A model generated the notes under the pieces. That model searched no databases and was not told the DNA's origin. It saw only the letters and a list, made by a program, of their open reading frames with translations. DNA of 64,000 nucleotides from Aliiglaciecola sp. LCG003 (GTDB lineage Bacteria > Pseudomonadota > Gammaproteobacteria > Enterobacterales > Alteromonadaceae): contig NZ_CP128185.1 of NCBI RefSeq assembly GCF_030316135.1, forward strand, positions 3,472,001 to 3,536,000. The letters run 5' to 3'. Numbering within the stretch: the first letter of the stretch is position 1; the number at the start of each line of letters is the position of its first letter. Below, piece after piece: positions 7,581-32,515 of the stretch. The position numbers were made by a program, and so were the translations under genes.

Positions 7581-8864
7581 ATGAAAGTTAACTTAAAAGA
7601 TGTTGATACTAACAAACGACGCACCCTAAAAACCTTAGCAACTTCAACTATAACTGTCGCGGCTATCTGCAACGCACCTTATGTTTTTGCCCGTAAAAAA
7701 CACACTCTGCGGGTTTTAGGAACACACGTCACCTTGCAGGAAAGTATTCGTAAGCAAGCCATGCAAGACCTAGGCATAGACGTACAATTCGAAGCCCGAG
7801 GTAGTGCTGCCGTGTTGCAAAAAGCCTCCGTTGCACCCTCTTCTTTTGATTTGTATGAACAATGGTCAAACAGTATCAATGTGTTATGGCGCGCGAACTC
7901 CATACAAGCCATCGATAAAAAACGTTTAACCTATTGGGATGAAATTAATCCATTAACTAAAACCGGCAAAGTAACCGATTATGCAAAGATTGGCGCTGGA
8001 GATGCCCCTTATAAACTGCTGCATGTGCAAGAAGATAATACCCTTGGTCCGGGACATACCGATAGGATCAGCTTTTTACCCTATGTGCATAATGTCGACT
8101 CATTCGGCTACAATACAAGTGTGATCCCAAAAGGAATCCCCTATGAAACAGAGAGTTGGGGGTGGTTATTGGATCCCAAGCATAGAGGTAAAGTCGGTAT
8201 TGTTAACGCGCCGACAATAGGTTTATTTGATTTAGCCTTAGCCATTCAAGCAAAGGGTATTGTCAACTTTGCCGATATAGGCGCTATTACCAATAACGAA
8301 CTGGACGTGATGTTCGATTATTTAATCGACTTAAAACAAAAAAATCATTTTAGTGGTTTCTGGACTTCAGTGCCTGAGTCCGTTGACTTCATGCGTACCA
8401 AACGTGTGAATATTGAGAGTATGTTTTCCCCAGCGGTTTCAGCGTTGAATGGCCAAAATGTACCCGTTAATTTTGCCGCGCCAAAAGAAGGTTATCGAGG
8501 CTGGCATGGTGTTATGTGCATGTCCTCTGCCATTTCAAATAACGCTAAAGACGCCGCTTATGATTATATGAACTGGTGGCTATCTGGCTGGCCCGGTGCA
8601 TTTATAGCAAGACAGGGCTACTACATTTCTAATGCTCAACGTTCAGCGCAGTATTTAAGCGCTGCAGAGTGGGATTATTGGTATCAAGGCAAAGCCGCAA
8701 CAGTTGATCTGTTAGGTTCGGATGGTAATGTTGCAGTCAAAAAGGGCGATACACGCAGTGGTGGCAGTTATGAAACCCGTTTTAGTAACGTTGCGGTTTG
8801 GAATACAGTTATGCCAAGTTATGAGTATAGTTTACAAAAGTGGTATGAGTTTATTAGCTCTTAA
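7581..8864 (+). CDS. PotD/NspS-like periplasmic substrate-binding protein, paired with a sensor kinase
   Basis: A 427-residue periplasmic binding protein of the spermidine/putrescine (PotD/PotF) type. The N-terminus has KRRTLK (12-17) before a hydrophobic stretch and a VFA site near 37, a possible Tat-like signal. SFDLYEQWSNSINVLWR, FLPYVHNVDSFGYN, ESWGWLLDPKHRGKV and the C-terminal YDYMNWWLSGWPGAFIARQG are consistent with the fold. It is longer than ordinary PotD (about 350). No permease or ATPase gene is near; the next gene, 23 bases on, is a hybrid sensor kinase. I infer a sensory rather than transport role, as for NspS, TorT or LuxP. The ligand is unknown; polyamines are one option. Confidence 0.82.
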   Translation: MKVNLKDVDTNKRRTLKTLATSTITVAAICNAPYVFARKKHTLRVLGTHVTLQESIRKQAMQDLGIDVQFEARGSAAVLQKASVAPSSFDLYEQWSNSINVLWRANSIQAIDKKRLTYWDEINPLTKTGKVTDYAKIGAGDAPYKLLHVQEDNTLGPGHTDRISFLPYVHNVDSFGYNTSVIPKGIPYETESWGWLLDPKHRGKVGIVNAPTIGLFDLALAIQAKGIVNFADIGAITNNELDVMFDYLIDLKQKNHFSGFWTSVPESVDFMRTKRVNIESMFSPAVSALNGQNVPVNFAAPKEGYRGWHGVMCMSSAISNNAKDAAYDYMNWWLSGWPGAFIARQGYYISNAQRSAQYLSAAEWDYWYQGKAATVDLLGSDGNVAVKKGDTRSGGSYETRFSNVAVWNTVMPSYEYSLQKWYEFISS

Positions 8865-8887
8865 AGCGACTTAAGGACAAGGATTAC

Positions 8888-11584
8888 GTGTTTCGTTCAC
8901 TCAAATTTCAGATCTCGCTAGTACTGATAACTTTAATCGGGCTTTTGCTGATACAAGGAGTTATATCCCGGGGCAATAGCACGCGCTTTTTTGAGGATAT
9001 CTCCCGTTCACAACGATCAGTACTAAAAGTTGAATTGGTCCGAGAATTAGAGAAAGACGTAATAGATGTTCAGCGCTACGTATTGATTTACAAGCAAACC
9101 GCAAGTAATTCCGTTTTGGTCCGATTCGAAACGATTTACCAAAAGATTAATAATAATTTAGTCTCACTGGAAAACATTATCCAGCAGGATCAAGACGTCG
9201 ATGCTTATCGCGATTTGATCTCGCGCATGCGTTCGCATTTAATCGATTACAAAGAAAATTTTGAGACGGTTGTAGAAGGCCGAAGTCGCCGTAAAGCCAT
9301 TTTTGATGAGAAGTTATCCGTAGATCTAGACAAGCTAGCCCTATCACTCAAACAGTATGAACAATCCGGCGCTTTGACTGCTGATCAAAAGGCAGCTCTG
9401 AATTCCGCTCGATACCATTTATCCCAAGCACACATGAAAACATTGGAGTACTTGATATCGCCTAGTCCTAGCAACATCGACGCATTTAAACAGGAAATCA
9501 CCGACACTCGACAGTTGTTCAGTGAATCCGACGAGTTAGCACCCATTGCAGAAGATTTAAAGCTATCGTTGAGTAACTTGTCAGCTGATTTTTTGCAATT
9601 AACCCAAATTACTCGGGGTTACCTTTTTTTGATCAATGTGGTTATGGCAGGTTCAGCCAATGAATTTCTGTATTTAGCCAAAGAACTAAGTCAATTGGTG
9701 ACCACCAAACAGGAGCTGATTTATCAGCAAATTGTTCAAAGTGCTGATCAATCGCAGGATAGAAATGAGGCCGTCACTGGGTTTAGTATCGCCTTAGCTT
9801 TTTTTGCAACCCTGTTCTTGGTTTACCGAGTATTGTTACCCATAGCTGCAATTTCAAAAGTATTTAATTTACTGGCAGATGGCCTGAGCATAGGTAAAAT
9901 CCCCCATACCCACCGCAAAGACGAAATTGGCAAATTAGCCTCTGCAGCGCAAGTTTTTCATGAAAAGAACATGCAAACTAGGGAATTGTTAGAACACTCA
10001 AAGTTGCTCAACGTGCAGCAGCAACAATTGAATAAAGAGTTAGCCAGTTCCAGCCTAAAAGCGGAACAAGCGACACAATCGAAAAGTATCTTCTTAGCTA
10101 ATATGAGTCACGAAATACGCACACCCATGAATGGTATTATTGGCTTAGTGGATATTGTACTCAATACCAAATTAGATGAGCAGCAACGGGAATATTTGGA
10201 GAAGGTTGCCTATTCAACCCAAATATTGATGAGCTTAATTAATGACATCCTTGATTTTTCTAAAATCGAAGCCGGAAAATTGGATATTGAAAGTGTCCAA
10301 TTCTGCCCTGATTCGTTGTTTGAAAACCTGCTCTCAAACATCAGCGTCAAAGCACAGGAAAAAAATCTCAACATTCATTTCTATGCTAACCCACATTTAC
10401 CCAATAGCCTTATTGGTGATCCTCTAAGGATTAGTCAGATCCTACTTAATTTATCCACTAATGCTGTAAAATTCACCAATGAGGGGACAATTAGCATAAA
10501 TGTTGATTTTGTAAACAAAGACGACAACACCATCACCCTGATTCTGAATATTACAGATACCGGTATTGGCATGGACGAGGAACAGCTAAAAAGTATTTTT
10601 AACCCTTTCACTCAAGCGGATGGCTCAACCAGTCGCCAATTTGGTGGTACAGGATTGGGCTTATCCATTGTCCATCAACTGGTAGAGCTGATGAATGGTC
10701 AAATATCGGTCGGCTCGGAGCTTAATCAGGGAAGTGAATTCGTTGTCCACATTGACTTACAAGTTAATAGACAGGAGCAAAAAACCGTTGCCTGCGATGC
10801 TGGCCTAAAAGTATATTATTATAGCACGGCTGCAGAGCGACTTACCCCAGAGGCGTATCTGCAATGTTTGGATGAAGATTACATTCAATTAACTGAGCAA
10901 AACTTTTCAATCCAACTGCAAGAACGGGGTGAAGAAGCCTTTTTGTTAATCGAAGTTGAGAATATTATTGCCTATAAAACCGTTCAATCGAAAATTGCAG
11001 AGGCCCAAGCAATGGGCGCAAAAGTAGGGTTAGTTACCAATACCCAGCCCAGCACCTTACCGCACTTGTTAGAGCAAAAGTGGCAATACCCGGTTATTTC
11101 ACAACCCTTCACTACCCAAAGCTTTAGACTGTTTATTGAAAGGATACGTTACGGTGAAGTTATGGCAAAAACATTACATTTGGCTGATGCACAACAAGAG
11201 TTACCACAGTTCAAAGGTCACCTTTTGTTGGTCGAAGACAATCATATTAATCAGCTTGTCGCGGTGGAAATGTTAAAGAAAATGGGCGTAAGCTATGACA
11301 TTGCCGAAGATGGTCAACAAGCGGTAACTAAAATTGTTAACTCCTCCCACTATGATCTGGTGCTAATGGATATTCAAATGCCGGTAATGGACGGCTATAC
11401 CGCAACGAGTATTCTTCGTGATAAAGGTTTTAAAGAGTTAATAATTTGTGGCTTGTCCGCCAATGCGATGAATGAAGATCATGACAAAGCATTGGAAGTG
11501 GGGATGAATAATTATCTAACCAAGCCAATAAAACAAGATGCATTGCAAAAAATGTTAAGCAAATACCTGACAATTAAGGCTTAA
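8888..11584 (+). CDS. Hybrid sensor histidine kinase with large periplasmic domain
   Basis: An 898-residue membrane kinase. Order of parts: TM1 about 8-27; periplasmic region about 28-294, mostly helical; TM2 about 295-317; HAMP-like linker; coiled coil about 370-400; HisKA with ANMSHEIRTPMNG (His408); HATPase with N-box NLSTNAVKF, G1 DTGIGM and GGTGLGLSI; a degenerate receiver-like stretch about 640-760; and a C-terminal receiver with Asp828 in LVLMDIQMPVMDG. GTG start at 8888 with AGGA upstream. There is no HPt domain and no output regulator beside it, so the phosphorelay must finish elsewhere. The likely input is the binding protein encoded just upstream. Confidence 0.9.
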   Translation: MFRSLKFQISLVLITLIGLLLIQGVISRGNSTRFFEDISRSQRSVLKVELVRELEKDVIDVQRYVLIYKQTASNSVLVRFETIYQKINNNLVSLENIIQQDQDVDAYRDLISRMRSHLIDYKENFETVVEGRSRRKAIFDEKLSVDLDKLALSLKQYEQSGALTADQKAALNSARYHLSQAHMKTLEYLISPSPSNIDAFKQEITDTRQLFSESDELAPIAEDLKLSLSNLSADFLQLTQITRGYLFLINVVMAGSANEFLYLAKELSQLVTTKQELIYQQIVQSADQSQDRNEAVTGFSIALAFFATLFLVYRVLLPIAAISKVFNLLADGLSIGKIPHTHRKDEIGKLASAAQVFHEKNMQTRELLEHSKLLNVQQQQLNKELASSSLKAEQATQSKSIFLANMSHEIRTPMNGIIGLVDIVLNTKLDEQQREYLEKVAYSTQILMSLINDILDFSKIEAGKLDIESVQFCPDSLFENLLSNISVKAQEKNLNIHFYANPHLPNSLIGDPLRISQILLNLSTNAVKFTNEGTISINVDFVNKDDNTITLILNITDTGIGMDEEQLKSIFNPFTQADGSTSRQFGGTGLGLSIVHQLVELMNGQISVGSELNQGSEFVVHIDLQVNRQEQKTVACDAGLKVYYYSTAAERLTPEAYLQCLDEDYIQLTEQNFSIQLQERGEEAFLLIEVENIIAYKTVQSKIAEAQAMGAKVGLVTNTQPSTLPHLLEQKWQYPVISQPFTTQSFRLFIERIRYGEVMAKTLHLADAQQELPQFKGHLLLVEDNHINQLVAVEMLKKMGVSYDIAEDGQQAVTKIVNSSHYDLVLMDIQMPVMDGYTATSILRDKGFKELIICGLSANAMNEDHDKALEVGMNNYLTKPIKQDALQKMLSKYLTIKA

Positions 11585-11585
11585 T

Positions 11586-11613
11586 AGAAAGCTCCAATTG
11601 GAGCCTTTCTTAT
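11586..11613. terminator. Probable bidirectional terminator
   Basis: An inverted repeat centred on CTCCAATTGGAG with flanking A/T tracts lies between the convergent hybrid kinase gene and the transglycosylase gene. It covers the last bases of both transcripts. Confidence 0.5.
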
Positions 11614-30136: not shown

Positions 30137-31339
30137 ATGTCTCGTGTTTTGATCATTGGTGCTGGCGGCGTCGCAGCCGTAACGGTAAAGAAATGTGCGC
30201 GCTTACCTGAGCATTTTGACGAAATCTATCTGGCCAGCAGAACTGTCTCCAAATGTGAGGCATTGCAGGCTGAAGTAGGTGCGGATCGCGTAAAAGGTGT
30301 GTTTGCTATAGATGCAGACAATGCCAGTGAAGTTGAAGCATTGATCAACAAGGTTAAACCAGACTTATTGGTTAACTTAGCACTACCCTATCAAGATTTG
30401 CCGATTATGGATGCCTGCTTGGCAACCGGCACAGATTACTTGGATACGGCTAACTACGAACCTAAAGATGAAGCTAAGTTCGAATACTCTTGGCAGTGGG
30501 CATATCAGGAACGTTTTAAGCAAAAAGGTATTATGGCTCTGCTCGGCAGTGGTTTTGATCCCGGTGTAACTAACGTGTATACCGCTTATGCGGCGAAGCA
30601 TTACTTTGATGAAATCCATTATTTGGATATCGTTGATTGTAATGGCGGTGATCACGGACAAGCATTTGCGACCAATTTCAATCCAGAAATCAACATCCGT
30701 GAAATTACCCAACGTGGACGCTTCTGGGAAGATGGCCAATGGAAAGAAACTGATCCCTTGTCAGTACGTGAAGATCTTGATTACCAAAATATCGGCGTGC
30801 GCGCATCTTACTTGATGTTCCACGAAGAATTGGAATCTATTGTCAAACACTTCCCTACACTTAAACGTGCCAGATTCTGGATGACCTTTGGCGATGCTTA
30901 CCTTAACCATTTGCGTGTGTTAGAAGGTATTGGCATGACTAGCATTGCGCCGATAGATTTCCAAGGACAGCAAATAGTGCCGCTGGAATTCCTTAAAGCA
31001 GTGTTGCCCAACCCAGGCTCTCTGGCAGAAGGTTATACCGGTCAAACATGTATCGGAACCTACATCACAGGTATTAAAGATGGCAAAGAGAAAACCATCT
31101 TTATCTACAATAATTGTAGCCATGCTGCATGTTATGAAGAAGTGGGCGCGCAAGCGGTTTCCTACACGACTGGCGTTCCAGCGATGATAGGCGCAGCCTT
31201 GATGCTTAACGGCACCTGGAAGAAGGAAGGTGTTTGGAACATGGAACAGTTTGATCCTGATCCGTTCATGGATATGCTTAACAAACATGGTTTGCCATGG
31301 CATGTAATAGAATGTGACCAGAGTCCGTTTAAAAAGTAA
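30137..31339 (+). CDS. Carboxynorspermidine/carboxyspermidine dehydrogenase (saccharopine dehydrogenase-like)
   Basis: A 400-residue NADPH-dependent enzyme that condenses aspartate semialdehyde with diaminopropane or putrescine to form carboxynorspermidine or carboxyspermidine. The Rossmann motif is VLIIGAGGVA (4-13), followed by LASRT for NADPH; LLGSGFDPGVTNV and FGDAYLNHLRVLEGIGM are typical of this CANSDH/Lys1-like group. It precedes the matching decarboxylase by 36 bases, the conserved polyamine gene pair of Vibrio and relatives. No aminotransferase/decarboxylase for diaminopropane is seen in the window, so the product (norspermidine or spermidine) is undecided. Confidence 0.93.
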   Translation: MSRVLIIGAGGVAAVTVKKCARLPEHFDEIYLASRTVSKCEALQAEVGADRVKGVFAIDADNASEVEALINKVKPDLLVNLALPYQDLPIMDACLATGTDYLDTANYEPKDEAKFEYSWQWAYQERFKQKGIMALLGSGFDPGVTNVYTAYAAKHYFDEIHYLDIVDCNGGDHGQAFATNFNPEINIREITQRGRFWEDGQWKETDPLSVREDLDYQNIGVRASYLMFHEELESIVKHFPTLKRARFWMTFGDAYLNHLRVLEGIGMTSIAPIDFQGQQIVPLEFLKAVLPNPGSLAEGYTGQTCIGTYITGIKDGKEKTIFIYNNCSHAACYEEVGAQAVSYTTGVPAMIGAALMLNGTWKKEGVWNMEQFDPDPFMDMLNKHGLPWHVIECDQSPFKK

Positions 31340-31375
31340 TTTATCCAATTTTAAGCCACAGGCAGGAGTAACCAC

Positions 31376-32515
31376 TTGAGTGACCCGATGTTAAATCCAA
31401 ACATTCCTTCACCCTGTTATGTATGTGAAGAACAGAAGCTGGAAAACAATTTGCAGTTAATGCAGCGCGTGCAAAATGAAGCAGGCGTTGACATTATTCT
31501 GGCCTTGAAAGGATTTTCCATGTGGTCAACGTTCGATTTGGTTGGCCAATATCTCAAGGGTTGCACCGCCAGCTCAGTATGGGAAGCTAAATTAGCCAAG
31601 TATGAGATGGGCAAGGAAGTCCACGCTTATTCTCCGGCTTATAAACAATCAGACATGGATGAATTGCTGAGGTTAGTTAACCATATTTCATTCAATAGCC
31701 TGAGCCAATGGCAGCGCTATAAGCAGCAAGTATTAGATAGCGGTATTTCTGCTGGCTTGAGAATTAATCCTGAGCACCGAGAAGCAGAAACCGAATTGTA
31801 TGATCCAAGTGCACCGGGCTCTCGCTTAGGTGTTTTGGTTAAAGATTTACAAGATGCAGACTTGAGCGGCATTGAAGGGTTTCACGTACACAATTTGTGT
31901 GAATGTGACTCCTATGCCACTCAGCGCACCTTAGATGCGGTGGAAAAACGCTTTGCAAAATGGTTACCCCAGCTTAAGTGGTTAAACTTGGGCGGTGGTC
32001 ATCTGATGACTAAGCAGGGTTACAATGTTGAGCATTTAATTGCCACCTTAAAAGGGTTCAAACAGCGTTATCCCAATTTGCAGATCATTATGGAGCCGGG
32101 CTCGGCTGTGGCGTGGCAAACGGGTACTTTGGTATCAGAGGTTGTCGATATTGTTGAGAATGAAGGCAAAATCGCAATTTTGGATATCTCCGCCACCGGC
32201 CATATGCCCGATGTGTTAGAGATGCCTTATCGCCCCGAAGTACGTAATGCCGGTCCGGCCAATGCAACAGAATTTACCTATAAATTGGGTGGCAACTCTT
32301 GCCTCGCCGGTGATGTGATTGATACTTATAGTTTTGATCATCCCCTGAAACAAGGGGACCGGATCATATTCGAAGATATGATTCACTATACCATGGTCAA
32401 AACGACATTTTTTAACGGAGTTGAACACCCGTCAATTGGTATCCTGCGCAAAAACGGGGAGTTTGAATTGATTAGGCAATTTAATTACGAAGACTTTAAA
32501 AGCCGATTATCTTAA
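31376..32515 (+). CDS. nspC: Carboxynorspermidine decarboxylase
   Basis: A 379-residue fold-type III PLP decarboxylase that turns carboxy(nor)spermidine into (nor)spermidine. The start is TTG at 31376 with AGGAG upstream. The PLP lysine is K45 in LALKGFSMW; HVHNLCECDSYA, LNLGGGHLMT and EPGSAVAWQTG are the conserved blocks of NspC. In Vibrio cholerae NspC affects norspermidine level and biofilm. It ends at a hairpin terminator that overlaps the stop codon. Confidence 0.95.
   Translation: MSDPMLNPNIPSPCYVCEEQKLENNLQLMQRVQNEAGVDIILALKGFSMWSTFDLVGQYLKGCTASSVWEAKLAKYEMGKEVHAYSPAYKQSDMDELLRLVNHISFNSLSQWQRYKQQVLDSGISAGLRINPEHREAETELYDPSAPGSRLGVLVKDLQDADLSGIEGFHVHNLCECDSYATQRTLDAVEKRFAKWLPQLKWLNLGGGHLMTKQGYNVEHLIATLKGFKQRYPNLQIIMEPGSAVAWQTGTLVSEVVDIVENEGKIAILDISATGHMPDVLEMPYRPEVRNAGPANATEFTYKLGGNSCLAGDVIDTYSFDHPLKQGDRIIFEDMIHYTMVKTTFFNGVEHPSIGILRKNGEFELIRQFNYEDFKSRLS

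Follow-up and report, generated by a model that had tools for sequence, protein, structure and literature searches.

About ten couples of a binding protein and a kinase have been characterised according to the accounts in PMC9602780 and PMC11113362, and the latter adds that neighbouring genes are not always functionally linked. Among the closest described systems, TorT-TorS and LuxP-LuxQ each consist of a binding protein that feeds a hybrid kinase, and NspS-MbaA consists of a PotD-fold protein, without a linked transporter, encoded beside a membrane receptor. Here we analyse a 64,000-nucleotide stretch of Aliiglaciecola sp. LCG003 (hereafter the window), in which the gene for a periplasmic solute-binding protein (SBP) of the PotD/YdcS type is followed by the gene for a hybrid histidine kinase (HK). 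The pair would form a dedicated two-component ligand sensor, a reading to which we assign a probability of about 0.82 from sequence comparison and structure modelling. The architecture, the pairing, the fold class and the absence of a linked transporter are established from sequence and prediction.

By its anatomy, the pair would work like TorT-TorS, except that its binding protein is of the PotD/YdcS type; TorT belongs to another SBP class. The periplasmic domain of TorS and, by prediction, that of the window kinase are stacked (two-tier) and helical, and TorS ranks high among the solved structures that match the sensor domain, yet the window kinase scores 338.6 bits against a TorS cut-off of 676.5 and has no HPt domain. 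In comparison with NspS-MbaA, the pair shares the unlinked PotD-fold protein, and genes for cyclic di-GMP (c-di-GMP) enzymes adjoin it in some lineages. However, its partner is a HisKA-HATPase-REC kinase instead of a membrane GGDEF-EAL protein, and the polyamine-binding acids are missing, NspS being compared through its published contacts. Although LuxP-LuxQ also couples a binding protein to a hybrid kinase, the LuxQ periplasmic region is described in PMC8534201 as a double PDC, whereas the sensor here is predicted to be all-helical, and the window kinase reaches 320.4 bits against a LuxQ cut-off of 1200. The tests run place the pair outside TorTS, NspS-MbaA and LuxPQ.

Three further comparisons are of use. 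The McpS-type HBM domain (PF16591) is the best fold match of the sensor, and a remote sequence relative (locus L174) is an HBM chemoreceptor, although the Pfam HBM profile misses the window kinase. In Pseudomonas aeruginosa, SBP genes (PA0602, AgtB, PA4985) are found near the kinase genes AgtS and AruS; unlike the present pair, the Agt genes adjoin an ATP-binding cassette (ABC) operon. The tested pairs gave no interaction in the experiments outlined in PMC11113362. According to its table entry in PMC8547461, PahP-PahK of Cycloclasticus likewise joins a periplasmic SBP to a histidine kinase under consecutive locus tags, but with a 318-residue SBP and a 771-residue kinase, beside the outer-membrane receptor PahS. 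No description of the present pair was recognised in the open-access literature, judged by titles and the beginnings of abstracts. The clade around the window protein is a case with exceptionless pairing in the sampled genomes, a strongly conserved binding protein and a sister clade that retains its transporter: a clean system for ligand finding and for following the change of a transport protein into a sensor.

Pairing with the kinase and absence of a linked transporter

A contig scan yielded 174 relatives of the binding protein; the best 80, which were kept, are mainly from Gammaproteobacteria (e.g., Alteromonadaceae, Pseudoalteromonas, Colwellia) with a few others (e.g., Micavibrio, Phycisphaerae). 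Given that the next same-strand open reading frame (ORF) resembles the sensor region of the window kinase in 80/80 of these loci, the association is not due to chance. In the clade set of 116 distinct members, the downstream ORF lies at -110 to +120 bases in 115 members, the exception being L110, where the kinase region is split over two ORFs. Sensor similarity by BLAST is likewise found downstream in 115/116, and in the remaining member (L107, genome G676) the profile search places a sensor match just after the binding-protein gene. The catalytic part of the kinase was found in 109/116; the other seven loci hold less than 1.5 kb of downstream DNA.

The two genes also track each other genome by genome. 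In the order sample (295 genomes; thresholds of at least 700 bits for the binding protein and more than 100 bits for the sensor), the clade protein is present in 17 genomes and the sensor domain in exactly the same 17; an eighteenth genome, G097, has only a protein of the second score group described below (434 bits) and no sensor. In the phylum sample (398 genomes, 7 of them common to both samples; at least 500 and more than 90 bits), both are present in the same 31 genomes, one of which (G785) is a partial match, and 71 genomes have some match at E<=1e-30. In the class sample, searched with the binding protein only, 11/369 genomes match, four of these within the clade. Weaker sensor matches, of up to 66.6 bits, occur elsewhere, and the three that were scanned are chemoreceptors.

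Three L124 sequences served as BLAST queries for ABC permease and ATPase genes (E<=1e-6, +/-6.5 kb). No clade member has a match (0/116; 77 of these loci extend at least 6 kb on both sides), an unlinked transporter not having been searched for. Scores against the clade profile form three groups: at least 678 bits (the 116 kept), 434-476 bits (tier 2, five proteins) and 308-371 bits (tier 3, 18 proteins). In tier 3, permease matches occur in 18/18 and ATPase matches in 16/18 loci. In a FastTree phylogeny rooted on PotF/PotD, each group is monophyletic (support 0.915, 0.986 and 0.933, respectively), and the 116-member clade and tier 2 are sisters (0.992). A single switch from a transport context to a kinase context would explain the 116-member clade.

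In the tier-2 sister branch, the proteins at L116:6039-7214 and L119:6042-7238 start with the mature sequence and have no signal peptide, which gives this binding-protein fold a cytoplasmic look; a third tier-2 protein is at about 7488-8744 of L120. All three have a CobW GTPase gene nearby; L119 and L120 also have an amidase gene, and L119 has in addition a gene for a short-chain dehydrogenase. Separately, the sister-clade transporter operon of L124 includes an Asp/Glu/hydantoin racemase family gene (L124:3385-4140), which may point to the class of ligand; judged by N-terminal sequence, such a racemase seems to be present in L123 and L125 too.

The initial annotation had read the pair as a sensor and had named, as evidence that would count against it, a transporter gene beside the binding protein in relatives and a failure of the two to co-occur; neither was found in the clade. 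The sensor reading is strongly supported, given co-occurrence without exception in the sampled genomes, adjacency, no detected transporter and a helical sensor of the TorS/HBM type. Some points temper it. The genomes sampled are related, so co-occurrences cannot be counted as independent; moreover, the search scores only a restricted set of candidates in each genome. In the assays reported in PMC11113362, P. aeruginosa PA0602, AgtB and PA4985 did not bind AgtS or AruS, the kinases encoded near them; since adjacency did not imply interaction there, it is the genome-by-genome co-occurrence that carries weight here. The top inter-protein covariation pair scores 0.41, against at most 0.19 in five full permutations, but its columns (69, 128, 256, 258) also dominate the within-sensor list; we therefore read it as clade signal and do not use it.

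The alternative that survives best, albeit as an unlikely one, is that the binding protein still serves an unlinked ABC transporter and that the kinase merely regulates transport or is a bystander. Both the fold and the sister clade are those of transport proteins, and some SBP genes are not close to transporter genes according to PMC9602780; against this, no linked permease is detected among the 116 members, and the presence of the protein tracks the sensor domain per genome in both samples.

Sensor domain and ligand pocket

The AlphaFold model of the sensor is all-helical, with six helices and a predicted local distance difference test (pLDDT) score of 94.7. Foldseek places the McpS ligand-binding domain (LBD) first (E 2.9e-5), followed by TorS (3i9y, E 4.3e-3, probability 1.00) and PilJ, with the TorS chains of TorS-TorT complexes just behind. 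At the sequence level, the solved chains matched by the sensor profile are mostly HAMP domains, and the Pfam HBM profile leaves the window kinase unmatched and reaches only 2/49 members at E<=0.1. Median pairwise identity (6111 pairs from 114 members) is 0.68 for the binding protein, 0.22 for the sensor and 0.51 for the HAMP-linker. Within the sensor, columns 248-262 are the most conserved 15, with a mean of 0.77 versus 0.35 overall; V251 (96%), V252 (98%), G255 (94%) and E259 (97%) stand out, as does Q62 in the first helix (96%). We infer that this layer (243-263) may serve in docking or signal transfer.

A somewhat less probable alternative than continued transport is that the helical domain senses a small ligand directly, like HBM chemoreceptors, with the adjacent protein as a modulator only. 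The closest solved structures, McpS-LBD with malate or succinate, favour it; however, the sensor is poorly conserved (0.22) and the binding protein well conserved (0.68), whereas the reverse would be expected if the domain itself sensed one shared ligand. Two chemoreceptor loci may be recorded here. L174:4611-8678 holds two neighbouring 671-residue frames, of which the scanned one is an HBM chemoreceptor with a weak match to the pair's sensor profile. At L142:723-2798 an HBM-type chemoreceptor gene is upstream of the pair, and the binding protein there might also feed chemotaxis.

For the binding protein, a sequence search of solved chains returned PotF at E 2e-6. The predicted model has a pLDDT of 77.8 and a predicted TM-score of 0.77, and its nearest folds are YdcS, PotF, VcPotD1 and PotD (query TM-scores of about 0.57-0.60). 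The PotD contact positions carry the numbers we take to be the established ones, and their letters agree with the aligned E. coli PotD. They map onto the window protein as E36 to V50, D257 to G310, W34 to T48, W229 to F282 and W255 to W308, and PotF D247 maps to A285. PotD D168/E171 fall on A210/I213 when matched by helix start, or on L218/A221 by MAFFT, which seems to misplace this segment; both registers are given. No mapped PotD/PotF contact is a conserved acid across the 116 members: position 50 is V in 115 and A in one, 213 is I in 116/116, 285 is A in 98 and G in 18, and 310 is G in 116/116. The NspS ligand contacts published in PMC9993111 include D236 and D263, which by our mapping fall on the PotF D247 and PotD D257 positions, both lost here.

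Kept instead are H49 and Q94 (114/116 each) and W95, H170, N171, R306 and W308 (116/116 each). Given the loss of the acidic contacts and the retention of these residues, the pocket suggests that the ligand is not a polycation. Our guess would be an anionic or amide-bearing small molecule, helped by the surroundings in the sister clades (the racemase in L124, the amidase in L119 and L120).

The initial annotation had called the protein NspS-like and put forward polyamine sensing as an option, noting norspermidine-type synthesis genes 20 kb away and naming a pocket devoid of acidic polyamine ligands as the finding that would speak against it; V50, A285 and G310 in place of the PotD/PotF acids are such a finding, so that the NspS label is not supported and the polyamine ligand is rejected. 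The genes in question (30137-32515, 18.5 kb off) are not linked to the pair. Their nspC scores 543.8 against a cut-off of 409, but the carboxynorspermidine synthase, at 416.5, is far under its own cut-off of 800; we presume that ordinary spermidine synthesis via the same route is as likely. A norspermidine or spermidine sensor, with an NspS-like protein feeding the kinase, is thus the least probable alternative: the nearest folds (VcPotD1 with spermidine or norspermidine among them), the aromatic kept as W308, the nspC-type genes and an acid in 37/116 members at position 210, onto which PotD D168 falls in one of the two registers, though A in the window, speak for it less than the loss of the E36, D257, E171 and D247 acids, T48 in place of W34 and the lost NspS contacts speak against it.

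Proposed signal path and output

In the dedicated-sensor reading, a Tat-exported binding protein would capture a small periplasmic solute, probably not a polyamine, and would dock on the kinase encoded next to it, at the elongated helical periplasmic domain (HBM/TorS-type). Docking would change kinase activity across the two transmembrane helices (TM1, TM2) and HAMP, and H408 would hand its phosphate to the receiver of the same kinase. Since the window kinase has no HPt, the phosphate would probably be relayed further by an HPt protein to an output regulator, with the genes for both located elsewhere; any of the genome's ten Hpt matches, nine of them over the cut-off, could be the relay partner. 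We infer the docking, the ligand, the direction of regulation and the output.

By a rough BLAST call, the 92 complete kinases divide into 67 HK+REC, 14 HK+REC+HPt and 11 without a detected receiver. Among adjacent co-oriented neighbours, 19/84 encode c-di-GMP enzymes, against 16/774 of the genes lying farther away within these loci. Eleven of the 19 represent one Pseudoalteromonas arrangement and two more (L075, L080) are from P. lipolytica, so the Fisher p-value makes the association look stronger than it is; outside Pseudoalteromonas the count is 6/67. Domain scans identified REC-PAS-GGDEF-EAL downstream of the pair in L025 and upstream in L075, REC-GGDEF as the second gene downstream in L081, PAS-GGDEF in L149, HAMP-PAS-GGDEF in L139 and REC-DUF3369-HD in L151. 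No adjacent c-di-GMP gene is present in the window or in the near relatives L002-L004. Counts over the whole +/-6.5 kb (GGDEF 28/116, EAL 17/116) were left unused, since these genomes are rich in GGDEF and EAL genes. The output in some relatives may be c-di-GMP turnover.

More tentatively, and at somewhat less than even odds, this PotD-superfamily branch may have left transport fully (with a sister branch that lacks a signal peptide and sits beside catabolic genes) and become a dedicated periplasmic sensor for a helical kinase. It would provide one conserved input module with lineage-specific outputs, repeatedly c-di-GMP enzymes, in effect a phosphorelay NspS-MbaA for another ligand.

The pair in the window

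The features are collected in Table 1. The initial description of a PotD-like protein followed after 23 bases by a hybrid kinase with some 265 periplasmic residues agrees with the ORFs, the Pfam matches and the hydropathy peaks (residues 1-30 and 294-333). The binding protein matches SBP_bac_6 at 31.6 bits (cut-off 24.6) and is single-copy in its genome. Its N-terminus is of the twin-arginine type, with RR at residues 13-14; in 87/116 clade members, RR falls within residues 1-30 of the matched region. The kinase matches HisKA, HATPase_c and Response_reg and has no Pfam Hpt match, which bears out a terminal receiver without HPt.

Table 1. Features of the binding protein-kinase pair (window positions).
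Feature	Position	Strand	Details
Periplasmic solute-binding protein, PotD/YdcS fold, SBP_bac_6	7581..8864	+	ATG start, 427 aa
Hybrid histidine kinase	8888..11584	+	GTG start, 898 aa
Kinase layout			TM1, helical periplasmic domain, TM2, weak HAMP, HisKA, HATPase_c, unassigned stretch, receiver
All-helical periplasmic sensor domain, HBM/TorS type (predicted)	8963..9787	+	segment folded, kinase residues 26-300
Most conserved part of the sensor	9614..9676	+	kinase residues 243-263, around V251, V252, G255, E259
Phospho-acceptor H408, in MSHEIRTP	10109..10111	+	from sequence
C-terminal receiver domain	11225..11557	+	kinase residues 780-890

As first noted, no ABC permease or ATPase gene is detected within 6.5 kb of the pair. 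Neither the window nor five loci of the sister clade gave an Rfam match, and promoter-like and terminator-like counts equal those in shuffled sequence; past the kinase stop there is one terminator-like site (11591-11604). Upstream are a DUF4426 gene and neighbours that we take to be YggS, ProC and YggT, and a converging SLT_2 transglycosylase gene is downstream. Kinase residues ~640-770 (10805-11197), between HATPase and receiver, are without a Pfam match and are possibly a decayed receiver.

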